A DNA stretch of 47,803 bases from positions 1-47,803 of the forward strand of contig JAKQEQ010000158.1 of the NCBI GenBank assembly GCA_029556545.1, given 5' to 3'. The notes below the pieces were generated by a model. The model saw nothing but the letters and a program-made list of their open reading frames with translations. It was not told the origin of the DNA and did no database searches. Both the position numbers and the translations under genes were made by a program. The stretch is from Candidatus Hydrogenedentota bacterium. GTDB lineage: Bacteria > Hydrogenedentota > Hydrogenedentia > Hydrogenedentales > JAGMZX01. Shown piece after piece: positions 7,893 through 11,637 of this stretch (positions within the stretch are counted from its first letter, which is position 1; each line of letters opens with the position of its first letter).

Positions 7893-8270
7893 TCAAACGC
7901 GTTCGTCGAAGAGCAGTCCCTGAAGCTTGCGGAAGCGCGCCGCGATCTTCAGGAGTTCCTGTGGCGGAATCTGTTTGATCACCTCGTTATTCTGGTCGAT
8001 AATCTGCGCGACAATACGACGTGTCACCTCGTCGATACGCATCCGCGTCCCTGTGCGGCGACGTACTTCCTCGACATCTTCGACCTTCTTCTTTTCCTCA
8101 CGCTCTTGGTCCGCCTTCGGCGGATTCGGGCACGCACTCGCTTGCACCCGCCGCGGGCCGGCGCTTTCCTCGGTTTCGATAGGCAGCACGGGAGCAGAGG
8201 AACGAGCGGCAAGAGCGGAGAGCAGACTCAGGAGAGTATGGTCCGTCTGGTTTTCTACTCGCATGTTCAT
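7893..8270 (-). CDS. flaG: FlaG family protein
   Basis: A small protein (about 125 residues) whose C-terminal half matches the FlaG family, associated with flagellar filament length control. The match runs from TRRIVAQIIDQNNEVIKQIP to PPQELLKIAARFRKLQGLLF and DERV at the end. The N-terminal half is low-complexity and is followed by a charged stretch (about 58-75). It is the last gene of the flagellin cluster, about 100 nt after flagellin 1. The start is uncertain: candidates are ATG 8270, ATG 8264 and a TTG at 8285, all with weak ribosome sites. The strong GGAGGGG at about 8308-8314 serves an ATG (8304) in another frame, which raises the possibility of a frameshift. The family call rests on the C-terminus. 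Confidence 0.75.
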   Translation of the reverse strand: MNMRVENQTDHTLLSLLSALAARSSAPVLPIETEESAGPRRVQASACPNPPKADQEREEKKKVEDVEEVRRRTGTRMRIDEVTRRIVAQIIDQNNEVIKQIPPQELLKIAARFRKLQGLLFDERV

Positions 8271-8370
8271 ACTCGCTCGCGGCAACCAGGGACGGCATAC
8301 CCATTTCCCCTCCAGGATCGCCCTGTAGCACCCCGATGAGGGGAATCAGCATGGCGTCCCTGGGCTTTCT

Positions 8371-9186
8371 TTAACCCAATAACAACAGGGCGGTCTGGGG
8401 CACGATATTCGCTTGGGCGAGCACCGAAGTCCCCGCGCTGACCAGGATTTGGTTGCGGGTGAACCCGACGGTTTCCTGCGCGATATCCGCGTCGCGAATG
8501 GCGCTTTGCGAGGCCGCCGCGTTCTCCTCCTGGATGGCCAGGGTGTTGATGGTGAACTCGAGGCGGTTCTGGTAGGCGCCGAGCGAACTGCGCAGCGTGT
8601 TCACGCTCTGGATTGCGTTGTCGATGGTGCTGATTGCCGAGACCGCAAGCGCCATCGTGGATACCGAGACGGTGTTGACGCTCAGGTCGTTCGTCTTCGC
8701 CCCAGAGACCGTGACGGCCAGCACCTGGCTCGTGTACGCGCCCGACTGCAGCGTGATGGTCTGAGAGGAACTCAGTACGCGAATGCCGTTGTAGTCGGTG
8801 TCCAGCGCGATGCTGTCGATCTGCGCGAGCAACTGCTGGACTTCGGCGTCGAGCGCGGCGCGGTTGTTCGTGCTCTGCGTGCCGTTAGCCGATTGGACGG
8901 CCAGTTCGCGGATGCGCTGCAGGATGTTGGTGGTCTCGCTGAGGGCGCCCTCGGCGGTCTGCACGAGGCTGACGCCGTCCTGCGCGTTGCGCTGCGCGAC
9001 CTGGGTGCCGAGCACCTGGGATCGGAAGGCCTCCGCGATGGCCAGCCCCGCCGCGTCGTCCGCCGCCCGGTTGATGCGCAGGCCGCTCGAGAGGCGTTCG
9101 AGGCTCTTGTTCAGGGCCTGCGTGGACCTGCCGAGCTGGCGTGACGTATTGATTGCCGGGATGTTTGTATTGATTCGAAGTCCCAT
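8371..9186 (-). CDS. fliC: flagellin 1 (short, D0-D1 only)
   Basis: A 271-residue flagellin, the subunit of the extracellular flagellar filament. The conserved N-terminal coiled-coil half starts MGLRINTNIPAINTSRQL and carries SLERLSSGLRINRAADDAAG. The conserved C-terminal half contains NRLEFTINTLAIQEENAAAS and DADIAQETV. Between them is only a short beta-rich segment (about 135-180), so the D2/D3 surface domains are absent. LQRIRELAVQSANGT matches the region that in other bacteria forms the filament core and the TLR5 contact. It has 11 amino-acid differences from flagellin 2, with many synonymous differences. The start is fixed by AAGGAGG 7 nt upstream. A second GGAGG in a hairpin loop lies 22 nt further up. 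The last residues are LLLLG. It is the third of three tandem copies. Confidence 0.95.
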   Translation of the reverse strand: MGLRINTNIPAINTSRQLGRSTQALNKSLERLSSGLRINRAADDAAGLAIAEAFRSQVLGTQVAQRNAQDGVSLVQTAEGALSETTNILQRIRELAVQSANGTQSTNNRAALDAEVQQLLAQIDSIALDTDYNGIRVLSSSQTITLQSGAYTSQVLAVTVSGAKTNDLSVNTVSVSTMALAVSAISTIDNAIQSVNTLRSSLGAYQNRLEFTINTLAIQEENAAASQSAIRDADIAQETVGFTRNQILVSAGTSVLAQANIVPQTALLLLG

Positions 9187-9212
9187 GAGCTTACCTCCTT
9201 GAATGGCGTTAA

Positions 9213-9227
9213 GAGCCTCCTTGGCCC
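9213..9227 (-). promoter_or_regulatory. GGA-loop hairpin in flagellin 1 leader
   Basis: On the minus strand GGGCC-AAGGA-GGCTC can form a 5-bp stem (one G-U pair) that presents AAGGA in the loop. It lies about 15 nt upstream of the flagellin 1 Shine-Dalgarno (GGAGG at 9194-9198). The arrangement of GGA in a loop plus GGA in the SD is typical of paired CsrA sites. Equivalent hairpins occur before flagellins 2 and 3. Confidence 0.4.
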
Positions 9228-9346
9228 AACCAACGAATCATGACAAGCGGTTGCGGGAAACGCGCCACGAGTCCCGCCGTGGCGTCCCGGAGCACCGCTG
9301 TGTCGGACACATCCTTTCTCCCGCGCGCGAATATGGATAGCAGAGC

Positions 9347-9379
9347 CCACGACGCGCCGCGCGGTCTTGCGCGCCGTGG
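9347..9379 (-). terminator. hairpin between flagellin 2 and flagellin 1
   Basis: A 10-bp stem (9370-9379 with 9347-9356, one G-U pair) with a 13-nt loop begins 32 nt after the flagellin 2 stop. No T-run follows, so it may act as an mRNA-stabilising or partial termination structure rather than a full terminator. The rest of this spacer (9187-9410) shows no further gene. A smaller inverted repeat lies at 9263-9269 with 9278-9284. Confidence 0.35.
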
Positions 9380-9410
9380 CCCGCACTCTATCTATCGAGC
9401 AGCTGCCTGG

Positions 9411-10226
9411 TTACCGAAGTAACTGAAGGGCGGTCTGCGGCACGATGTTCGCCTGGGCCAGCACCGAAGTGCCCGCGCTTACGAGAATCTGGTTGCGCGT
9501 GAACTTCACGGTCTCCTGCGCGATGTCCGCGTCGCGAATGGCGCTTTGCGAAGCCGCCGCGTTTTCCTCCTGGATGGCCAGGGTGTTGATGGTGAATTCG
9601 AGGCGGTTCTGGTATGCGCCGAGCGAACTGCGGAGCGTGTTCACGCTCTGGATCGCGTTGTCGATGGTACTGATCGCGGAGACGGCGAGCGCCATCGTCG
9701 AGATGGACACCGAATTGACGCTCAGGTCGTTTGTCTTCGCGCCCGACACCACGACCGCCAGAACCTGACTCGTGTACGCGCCCGCCTGCAACGTAACGGT
9801 CTGCGAGGAACTCAGTACGCGGATGCCGTTGTAGTCGGTATCCAGCGCGATGCTATCTATCTGCGCGAGCAACTGCTGCACTTCCGCGTCGAGCGCGGCG
9901 CGGTTGTTCGTGCTCTGGGTGCCGTTTGCGGACTGGACGGCGAGTTCGCGAATGCGCTGCAGGATGTTGGTGGTCTCGCTGAGCGCGCCTTCGGCGGTCT
10001 GCACGAGGCTGACGCCGTCCTGCGCGTTTCGCTGCGCGACCTGGGTGCCGAGCACCTGGGAGCGAAACGACTCCGCGATGGCCAGTCCCGCCGCGTCGTC
10101 CGCCGCCCGGTTGATACGCAAGCCGCTTGAAAGTCTTTCGAGCGATTTGTTCAGGGCGGTGGTGGACCGCGCCAACTGGCGCGACGTGTTAATGGCGGGA
10201 ATGTTCGTGTTGATGCGTAATCCCAT
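9411..10226 (-). CDS. fliC: flagellin 2 (short, D0-D1 only)
   Basis: Second of three tandem flagellin genes, again exactly 271 residues and lacking D2/D3. It differs from flagellin 1 at about 11 positions, for example Ala53 to Ser, IT to VT in the central strand, and Gly to Lys before FTRNQ; the terminal residues are QLLR instead of LLLG. The open frame extends 20 codons upstream to 10286, but the family N-terminus MGLRIN begins at 10226 with CATTCAAGGAGG 9 nt before it. An in-frame ATG at 10259 preceded by GGAGG could give an 11-residue extension and is considered less likely. Its leader contains a hairpin with GGA in the loop. Confidence 0.95.
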   Translation of the reverse strand: MGLRINTNIPAINTSRQLARSTTALNKSLERLSSGLRINRAADDAAGLAIAESFRSQVLGTQVAQRNAQDGVSLVQTAEGALSETTNILQRIRELAVQSANGTQSTNNRAALDAEVQQLLAQIDSIALDTDYNGIRVLSSSQTVTLQAGAYTSQVLAVVVSGAKTNDLSVNSVSISTMALAVSAISTIDNAIQSVNTLRSSLGAYQNRLEFTINTLAIQEENAAASQSAIRDADIAQETVKFTRNQILVSAGTSVLAQANIVPQTALQLLR

Positions 10227-10250
10227 AATCGTAATCCTCCTTGAATGACC

Positions 10251-10270
10251 CCCGGGCATCCAAGCCCAGG
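10251..10270 (-). promoter_or_regulatory. GGA-loop hairpin in flagellin 2 leader
   Basis: On the minus strand CCTGGGC-TTGGAT-GCCCGGG forms a 7-bp stem (one U-G pair) with a 6-nt loop containing GGA. It lies 10 nt upstream of the flagellin 2 SD (GGAGG at 10236-10240), and another GGAGG is just before it (10272-10276). This is the clearest of the three GGA-loop structures. Confidence 0.45.
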
Positions 10271-10340
10271 TCCTCCCATAAAACACCGTTTACTTCGTCA
10301 CCATCGAGCGACGCGACTCGCCCGAGGCAACACTGAGGCA

Positions 10341-10362
10341 GACCTGCGGATCACCTCCTTTC
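10341..10362 (+). other. stretch resembling the 3' end of 16S rRNA
   Basis: The plus strand reads ACCTGCGG directly followed by ATCACCTCCTTTC. This equals the universal 3' end of bacterial 16S rRNA with about four bases (CTGG) missing in the middle. On the minus strand, which is the transcribed strand of the flagellin leader, it gives GAAAGGAGGTGAT, an unusually long Shine-Dalgarno match, yet no start codon follows at usable spacing. It lies 115-136 nt upstream of the flagellin 2 start. Function unknown; it could be chance or a ribosome-binding decoy. Confidence 0.4.
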
Positions 10363-10394
10363 GGTCCCGCCACGAGGGCGGAACCCGCGCGTTG

Positions 10395-10425
10395 GCGGCC
10401 GGACGCCTACGGGGCGTCCGGCCGC
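10395..10425 (-). terminator. strong hairpin after flagellin 3
   Basis: A perfect 13-bp inverted repeat (10395-10407 with 10413-10425, GCGGCCGGACGCC and its complement) encloses a 5-nt loop, 28 nt after the flagellin 3 stop. There is no T-tract. It probably protects or attenuates the flagellin 3 message and would make downstream flagellin 2 and 1 transcripts less abundant if it halts polymerase partly. Confidence 0.45.
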
Positions 10426-10452
10426 GGCCATGAACTATGTAGAACGGCGCGC

Positions 10453-11268
10453 CTACCCGAGGAGTTGGAGCGCCGTCTGCGGCACGATATTCGCCTGCGC
10501 CAGGACCGACGTGCCCGCGCTGACGAGAATCTGGTTGCGCGTGAACGCCACCGTCTCTTGCGCGATATCGGCGTCGCGGATGGCGCTTTGCGAGGCCGCC
10601 GCGTTCTCTTCCTGGATCGCCAGGGTGTTAATGGTGAATTCGAGACGGTTCTGGTACGCGCCGAGCGCGCTGCGCAGCGTGTTCACGCTTTGGATCGCGT
10701 TGTCGATGGTGCTGATTGCGGAAACCGCGAGGTCCATCGTCGAGATGGTGACGGTGTTGACGCTCAGATCGTTTGTCTTCGCGCCCGACACCACGACCGC
10801 CAGCACCTGACTCGTGTACGCTCCTGACTGCAACGTCACGGTCTGCGACGAACTCAGCACGCGGATGCCGTTGTAGTCGGTGTCCAGCGCGATGCTGTCG
10901 ATCTGCGCGAGCAACTGCTGCACTTCCGCGTCGAGGGCGGCGCGGTTGTTCGTGCTCTGCGTGCCGTTGGCCGACTGCACGGCCAGTTCGCGGATGCGCT
11001 GCAGGATGTTGGTGGTCTCGCTGAGTGCGCCTTCGGCGGTCTGCACGAGGCTGACGCCGTCCTGCGCGTTGCGTTGCGCGACCTGGGTGCCGAGCACCTG
11101 GGAGCGAAACGACTCCGCGATGGCCAGTCCCGCCGCGTCATCCGCCGCCCGGTTGATACGCAAACCGCTCGAGAGTCTCTCGAGCGATTTGTTCAACGCG
11201 TTCGTGGAGCGCCGCAGGACGCGCGCCGTGTTTAGCGCAGGTACATTGGTGTTGATTCGAAGTCCCAT
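10453..11268 (-). CDS. fliC: flagellin 3 (short, D0-D1 only), promoter-proximal copy
   Basis: First transcribed of the three 271-residue flagellin genes. It is the most diverged at the extreme N-terminus (NTNVPALNTARVLRRSTNAL compared with NIPAINTSRQL in the others) and has SALGAYQNR and ETVAFTRNQ where the others have SSLG and GFT or KFT. The remaining coiled-coil core is nearly identical to its paralogues. The start is supported by GGAGG 8 nt upstream. An exact sigma-28 promoter lies about 345 bp upstream and no other promoter of that type is visible before flagellins 2 or 1. The long leader contains a five-codon upstream frame and a GGA-loop hairpin. No other flagellar genes except flaG are in the window. 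Confidence 0.95.
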   Translation of the reverse strand: MGLRINTNVPALNTARVLRRSTNALNKSLERLSSGLRINRAADDAAGLAIAESFRSQVLGTQVAQRNAQDGVSLVQTAEGALSETTNILQRIRELAVQSANGTQSTNNRAALDAEVQQLLAQIDSIALDTDYNGIRVLSSSQTVTLQSGAYTSQVLAVVVSGAKTNDLSVNTVTISTMDLAVSAISTIDNAIQSVNTLRSALGAYQNRLEFTINTLAIQEENAAASQSAIRDADIAQETVAFTRNQILVSAGTSVLAQANIVPQTALQLLG

Positions 11269-11290
11269 AGCATTGTCCTCCGTGAATGGT

Positions 11291-11308
11291 TTAAGGCGGC
11301 GCTTCCAT
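11291..11308 (-). CDS. five-codon upstream ORF (MEAPP) in flagellin 3 leader
   Basis: Directly after GGAGG and a 3-nt gap the minus strand reads ATG GAA GCG CCG CCT TAA. It ends 22 nt before the flagellin 3 ATG and contains two consecutive proline codons, which slow ribosomes in the absence of EF-P. The spacing from the SD is short for efficient initiation. Whether it is translated is unknown. Confidence 0.25.
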   Translation of the reverse strand: MEAPP

Positions 11309-11313
11309 GCGCC
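11298..11313 (-). promoter_or_regulatory. GGA-loop hairpin in flagellin 3 leader
   Basis: GGCGC-ATGGAA-GCGCC on the minus strand forms a perfect 5-bp stem with a 6-nt loop that contains GGA and the start codon of the MEAPP upstream frame. It lies 17 nt upstream of the flagellin 3 SD (11277-11281). This is the third instance of a GGA-loop hairpin before a flagellin gene here. Confidence 0.4.
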
Positions 11314-11610
11314 TCCTCGTTGCGCCGTTCAGCCCGCAAAGGACTGAACTGGCCGCATCCCAGTGATACGGGAAGTCTCGCCAAGGGTCGGCCACGATTC
11401 CCGACCGCGCCCGCGCGCTCCGGCACGTCCCTATGTCAGGGCACACTGGCGCTTGCCGGGAAGCCGGCCCCAAGCGGCCCTTCCCGCCGACAGCCGGCGT
11501 CCGCTGTCCCTGCGCTACGCCGGTAGCCGCACCCATCAACTGTCGCAACCCCGATGTCCCCCGCTCCCATTCAGGTGTCGGCGAGGCCCATTCCGGGTTA
11601 CCTGTCGGTT

Positions 11611-11637
11611 TTATCGGCAACTTTAGCGGAAACTTTA
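11611..11637 (-). promoter_or_regulatory. sigma-28 (FliA) flagellin promoter
   Basis: The minus strand reads TAAAGTTT, 11 nt, GCCGATAA, which is the textbook FliA consensus with no mismatch and exact spacing. It is the only such site seen in the window and points at flagellin 3. It therefore implies that a FliA-type sigma factor is encoded elsewhere in the genome. Confidence 0.9.

Follow-up and report, generated by a model that had tools for sequence, protein, structure and literature searches.

Do the flagellin genes of an uncultured bacterium, each preceded by a short hairpin that presents GGA in its loop, carry operators for a CsrA-type repressor? The question arises from a 47,803 nt stretch of a Candidatus Hydrogenedentota genome (hereafter the window), in which three flagellin genes lie on the minus strand, and from an initial annotation of this stretch that predicted translational repression of the three-gene set by a CsrA-like protein.

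Flagellin genes of the window and the hairpins in their leaders

The three genes, identified with Pfam, occupy positions 10453..11268 (gene 1, 271 aa, Flagellin_N and Flagellin_C), 9411..10226 (gene 2) and 8371..9186 (gene 3, 271 aa). Their products are 94–96% identical, and in the public genome collection their closest counterparts are mainly Candidatus Hydrogenedentota proteins. A flaG gene (7893..8285, minus strand, Pfam FlaG, start codon uncertain) lies 3' of the set on the same strand; it has no clear GGA-hairpin leader, and the covariance model described below scores only 6.2 bits there. A fourth main-type flagellin, located on a separate contig (G000:C101:27875-28736; loci L113 and L225), has a short sigma-28 leader and a GGA hairpin of its own, CCGATGCAAGGATGCAAAGG, which belongs to a separate, less variable class that is kept across the phylum. 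The spacer between genes 1 and 2 also contains GAAAGGAGGTGATCC (10350-10365, minus strand), apparently a full complement of the usual 3' end of 16S rRNA, with no obvious gene after it.

The three hairpins (site 1) were found where the initial annotation had placed them, on the minus strand, which it had left unstated. The hairpin of gene 1, GGCGC-ATGGAA-GCGCC (11298..11313, minus strand; model score 36.8 bits), has a canonical ANGGAN hexaloop; in that of gene 2, CCTGGGC-TTGGAT-GCCCGGG (10251..10270, minus; 35.3 bits), U replaces the conserved A at −2 (loop position 1); and that of gene 3, GGGCC-AAGGA-GGCTC (9213..9227, minus; 28.1 bits), is a pentaloop and the weakest of the three. The Shine-Dalgarno GGAGG, all on the minus strand, falls within a second site (site 2), which reads TCACGGAGG in gene 1 (GGAGG at 11277..11281) and TCAAGGAGG in gene 2 (10236..10240) and gene 3 (9194..9198). 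The gap between hairpin and GGAGG is 14, 10 and 16 nt in the leaders of genes 3, 2 and 1, respectively, so the described position shortly 5' of the ribosome site holds with gaps of 10–16 nt, and the reported shared word CATTCA(A/C)GGAGG is present in all three leaders.

Single-sequence folding, which had been suggested as a check, formed the hairpin in all three leaders and left the loop GGA unpaired with a probability of at least 0.99. The three are not equally good, however: when compared with dinucleotide shuffles, only the leader of gene 1 was clearly more stable (z = −2.2 to −3.1), that of gene 2 was marginal (z = −1.2 to −1.7), and that of gene 3 was weak, no better than chance (z about 0). 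The window leaders taken alone thus make a suggestive case for CsrA-type hairpins.

Conservation, covariation and specificity among relatives

Flagellin genes were sought in 60 genomes, from which 141 distinct leaders were extracted; a hairpin was counted when it had at least 4 pairs and GGA within a loop of 4–8 nt. Such hairpins were present in 96 of the 123 main-type flagellin leaders, compared to 15.8 ± 3.6 (maximum 27) in dinucleotide shuffles, and 62 of these leaders had stems of at least 5 pairs (4.9 in shuffles); the leaders come from about 40 related genomes, the kinship of which means that the counts are not independent events. The hairpin was present in 7 of 8 leaders when the three of the window were taken together with those of its sister species and of the distal copy (1.1 in shuffles). 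When pooled over relatives, a chance origin of the GGA hairpins is excluded. Divergent flagellin-like genes (42–50% identity), which serve as a negative control, showed no excess of GGA hairpins (4 of 18 vs. 2.4 expected).

To keep pairing out of the choice of site, GGA was picked by sequence and spacing only: pair 3 of the stem was formed in 113 of 120 leaders (48 ± 5 in shuffled columns) and occurred as GC, CG, TA and AT. The covariation score for 57 diverse members, a set pre-selected for pairing, was 0.73, compared to 0.22 after shuffling and no more than 0.16 after sliding. The loop has the form A-N-GGA-N, with A at −2 in 116 of 120 loops, and so the Hydrogenedentota flagellin loops fit the ANGGAN hexaloop that has been reported, along with the consensus RUACARGGAUGU, for CsrA/RsmE (PMC7652899). 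On this comparative evidence, compensating substitutions have preserved the hairpin design in some 120 flagellin genes within the phylum. The initial annotation had staked its prediction on retention of the GGA-loop hairpins in related flagellin leaders; close and distant relatives alike keep them, with compensatory stem changes. Its remark that the hairpins differ in sequence and agree in structure also extends beyond the window, in that the stems vary between genes yet covary in relatives.

Site 2, TCANGGAGG, spans the Shine-Dalgarno 21–25 nt 3' of the loop GGA (GGA to GGA) in the window and most relatives, and in almost all leaders this second GGA lies over the Shine-Dalgarno, at a distance compatible with a dimer. 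The tetranucleotide TCAN precedes GGAGG in 107 of 130 flagellin leaders vs. 4 of 61 other GGAGG genes of the same loci; the base adjoining GGAGG is free (C, A or T), and the preceding A and C are fixed. This pattern fits a CsrA site better than pairing with rRNA, and TCAN is not needed for Shine-Dalgarno pairing. A hairpin around site 2 was considered and rejected, given that none is conserved in the flagellin leaders of relatives and the respective columns do not covary.

A covariance model of the hairpin plus site 2 (R1) was used to search the 6.1 Mb genome. The top four matches were the four main-type flagellin leaders (E = 1.5e-6, 3.9e-6, 3.7e-4 and 0.07), two of which were in the training set of the model, and the best-scoring one was absent from it, with a close sister-species counterpart included. 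Nothing convincing followed in this genome: the next matches have E-values of 0.08 and above and do not combine a GGA hexaloop with a Shine-Dalgarno, and a wider hag-type CsrA regulon was accordingly rejected for now. Across the 60 genomes, all 73 matches with E < 1e-4 fall at flagellin operons, 71 of them immediately upstream of a flagellin gene and the other 2 within a long leader. One match in a csrA-less genome, G024 (E = 2.5e-4), lies away from flagellin genes and was taken as chance. An Rfam scan of the window gave no match.

Several observations were made along the way. The middle flagellin gene of the sister species, G001 (G001:C18, L115:1843-2640), loses its reading frame past about residue 70. 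In its leader, the Shine-Dalgarno is poor (CAAAGAGGG) and a canonical hairpin is absent; this copy may be a natural experiment or the result of faulty assembly. A public genome with the title Nitrospiraceae bacterium OTbin.67 (L034, JAACEL010000008.1) encodes flagellins of the Hydrogenedentota type and was placed by a genome search in the order of the window, so that its public name is probably wrong. Similar loops occur in flagellin leaders of Desulfobacterota, Bdellovibrionota, a Tanganyikabacteria genome, an actinobacterium and a Sericytochromatia genome. In the same sample, the Planctomycetota flagellins (L081, L085, L086, L091, L093, L094, L100 and L108) differ from most of those of Desulfobacterota and Bdellovibrionota in that they mostly lack both a clear Shine-Dalgarno and the GGA hairpin.

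The csrA-fliW pair and the probable flagellin operon

A csrA homologue, on which the prediction hinged, was found in the genome as a single gene (PF02599, 86.5 bits, over the Pfam cut-off; G000:C169:31643-31798), and the search for fliW, proposed alongside, likewise yielded a single gene (PF02623, 113.3 bits). The two adjoin each other in the order fliW-csrA, with csrA directly 3' and the fliW match ending 46 nt before that of csrA. Residues L4, R6, V42, R44 and N55 are invariant in 31 of 31 CsrA proteins of relatives; the first four are RNA-binding residues of CsrA. The closest structure to the CsrA of this genome is the CsrA chain of 5DMB, a solved FliW-CsrA complex, followed by 1T3O, and the FliW of the genome also matches 5DMB.

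Among the 60 related genomes, csrA and fliW have identical distributions and are paired in all 38 csrA-positive genomes. Flagellin and csrA co-occur significantly (both in 36 genomes, neither in 18, mixed in 6; p = 1.2e-9). Four of the mixed genomes are flagellin-positive and csrA-negative: in two of these, G031 and G052, the contigs end at the neighbour gene of csrA, so that the absence of csrA is an assembly gap; for the other two, G017 and G040, which are 83% and 60% complete, only low completeness is available as the explanation. The two genomes of the reverse type are 80% and 78% complete. The genes 3' of fliW-csrA are alike in the window's genome and in G022 (L033, L282), encoding first a protein of some 208 aa and then one of 950–1100 aa; the latter looks glycosyltransferase-like by eye and is possibly involved in flagellin glycosylation.

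A sigma-28 (FliA)-type promoter, TAAAGTTT-N11-GCCGATAA (11611..11637, minus strand), with 0 mismatches to the consensus, precedes gene 1; from the end of its −10 box to the ATG there are 342 nt. For genes 2 and 3, there is no comparable sigma-28 site, the best candidates having 8 and 7 mismatches, respectively. Most related clusters have a sigma-28-type promoter as well, nearly always before the first gene only. The three flagellin genes of the window are therefore probably one operon, and from the placement of the promoter, genes 2 and 3 would be translated from the mRNA of gene 1, each with its own operator. The leaders are mostly 160–660 nt long in clusters and 75–92 nt long for the distal single flagellin.

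The long leader of the window contains two further GGA hairpins. The first, GGCGTAGCGC-AGGGACA-GCGGACGCC (11496..11521, minus strand; −18.2 kcal/mol with flanks), has a G001 counterpart, GGTGTGCGC-AGGGACA-GCGCACACC, with an identical loop and a compensatory change from C-G to T-A in the stem. The second, CAT-AGGGAC-GTG (11424..11435, minus strand), is an ANGGAN hexaloop on a short stem of 3 closing pairs, and the loop is retained in the sister species. Across 32 long leaders, with the last 55 nt excluded, 45 of 115 scorable ANGGA motifs form hexaloop hairpins (3.6 ± 1.8 in shuffles), compared to 1 of 35 upstream of the promoter and 4 of 82 in intergenic spacers. About 15 genomes have a pair of hairpins with covarying stems, spaced 20–26 nt apart and located some 60 nt past the −10 box; in place of this 5' pair, the window leader has its two separate hairpins, its only extra ANGGA sites. 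A small upstream ORF was considered for the 5' pair and rejected because GGAGG varies there (GGACG, GGATG) and is not followed by a conserved frame. Two words are overrepresented in the long leaders (e.g. L142, L146 and L148), namely ATGGGAC (19 vs. 1.0 expected, in nine leaders) and AGTTGAA (20 vs. 1.1 expected).

The additional ANGGA hairpins suggest a CsrA-titrating leader. It is conceivable, if rather doubtful, that the mRNA of the flagellin operon acts as its own CsrA sponge, through the 5' hexaloop pair of the sigma-28 leader together with the two sites per cistron. The 5' pair would then serve no start codon, and transcription of the operon would soak up CsrA at once; such a sponge would sharpen the transition of flagellin from repression to full translation.

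Proposed control, rival explanations and known systems

Taken together, these observations point to CsrA translational control of the hag/flaA type, relieved by FliW, with per-cistron operators on one sigma-28-driven flagellin operon, a reading to which we assign a probability of close to 0.9. One CsrA dimer would contact two GGA sites, that of the hairpin loop (site 1, ANGGAN) and, 21–25 nt downstream, CANGGA with the Shine-Dalgarno (site 2), and in doing so would block ribosomes from starting. Upon export, flagellin would come off FliW, which could then bind CsrA and free the mRNA; each cistron of the operon would have its own CsrA operator. The predicted repression of the three-gene set gains support from the csrA-fliW pair and from the retained, covarying hairpins; repression, like CsrA binding and the exchange of partners among CsrA, FliW and flagellin, we infer from Bacillus and Campylobacter. 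At the level of sequence, the sites, their conservation, covariation and flagellin specificity, and the presence and co-occurrence of csrA and fliW are established. Besides the strand, the initial annotation had not mentioned the single sigma-28 promoter and the probable operon, the additional hairpins of the long leader or the unequal quality of the three hairpins.

Should CsrA bind these leaders, its main effect might be on the RNA, that is, on mRNA level, localisation or CsrA titration, and not on ribosomes. The extra ANGGA hairpins of the long leader, distant from any start codon, are in line with such an effect, and there are precedents: the Campylobacter jejuni flaA mRNA titrates CsrA and is localised (PMC4894983), and CsrA in Bacillus subtilis limits the hag transcript level too (PMC6529632). 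However, site 2 covers the Shine-Dalgarno in nearly every leader, which is the usual arrangement for blocking initiation, and we consider a mainly RNA-level role unlikely. Less probable still is that the hairpins are mRNA processing or stability elements, such as RNase E/III sites or 5' hairpins that stabilise the message between cistrons, with incidental GGA loops. Their location between cistrons of a probable single transcript and their stable, GC-rich stems would suit such elements, which, however, would need neither the A-N-GGA loop with its nearly invariant A at −2 (116/120) nor the fixed 21–25 nt distance to the ribosome site nor TCAN before GGAGG; moreover, the distal single flagellin has the hairpin as well. 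We attach hardly any weight to the notion that the hairpins are functionless recent copies spread by flagellin gene duplication. The genes are indeed close paralogues, with proteins 94–96% identical in the window, but the stems of the paralogues are almost wholly different and their pairing is maintained by two-sided changes, whereas functionless copies would share sequence rather than structure; in addition, the frameshifted G001 copy has a poor leader.

Our literature search found no paper joining Hydrogenedentes with CsrA. The CsrA-FliW mechanism is well known; Hydrogenedentota is a lineage in which it was previously undescribed, and the long leader is unusual. The proposed operators would extend CsrA-FliW flagellin control to an uncultured phylum on evolutionary evidence, beyond a single look-alike, and with the similar loops in other phyla, comparative genomics could test whether CsrA had an ancient, flagellin-first role. 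The covariance model is ready for use and, in the window's genome, marks the flagellin genes alone as a CsrA target of the hag/flaA type, and the long, hairpin-loaded leaders raise the concrete question of mRNA as a CsrA titrator.

The arrangement resembles the B. subtilis hag leader, in which there are two CsrA sites, one of them over the Shine-Dalgarno, and the target is flagellin; in B. subtilis, too, fliW and csrA are adjacent. Unlike hag, the genes described here form a probable polycistronic set with a predicted operator per gene, and their long leader has further GGA hairpins. The likeness to C. jejuni flaA, where two ANGGA loops (SL1/SL2) lie 21 nt apart and repression has been demonstrated (PMC4894983), includes the ANGGA loop hairpin, a second ANGGA over the ribosome site at a spacing of about 21 nt, covarying stems and membership in the sigma-28 class. 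However, site 2 has no conserved hairpin, in contrast to SL2, the leader reaches 660 nt compared to 45 nt in flaA, and csrA and fliW are adjacent, whereas they are separate in Campylobacter. With what may be several ANGGA loops on one RNA, the long flagellin leader is also somewhat reminiscent of the CsrA-sequestering small RNAs CsrB and RsmZ. It differs from these in having fewer sites, mostly 1–7 ANGGA beyond the two operator sites, and in that the loops, without an Rfam match, are apparently joined to the flagellin mRNA, whereas CsrB and RsmZ are free RNAs.
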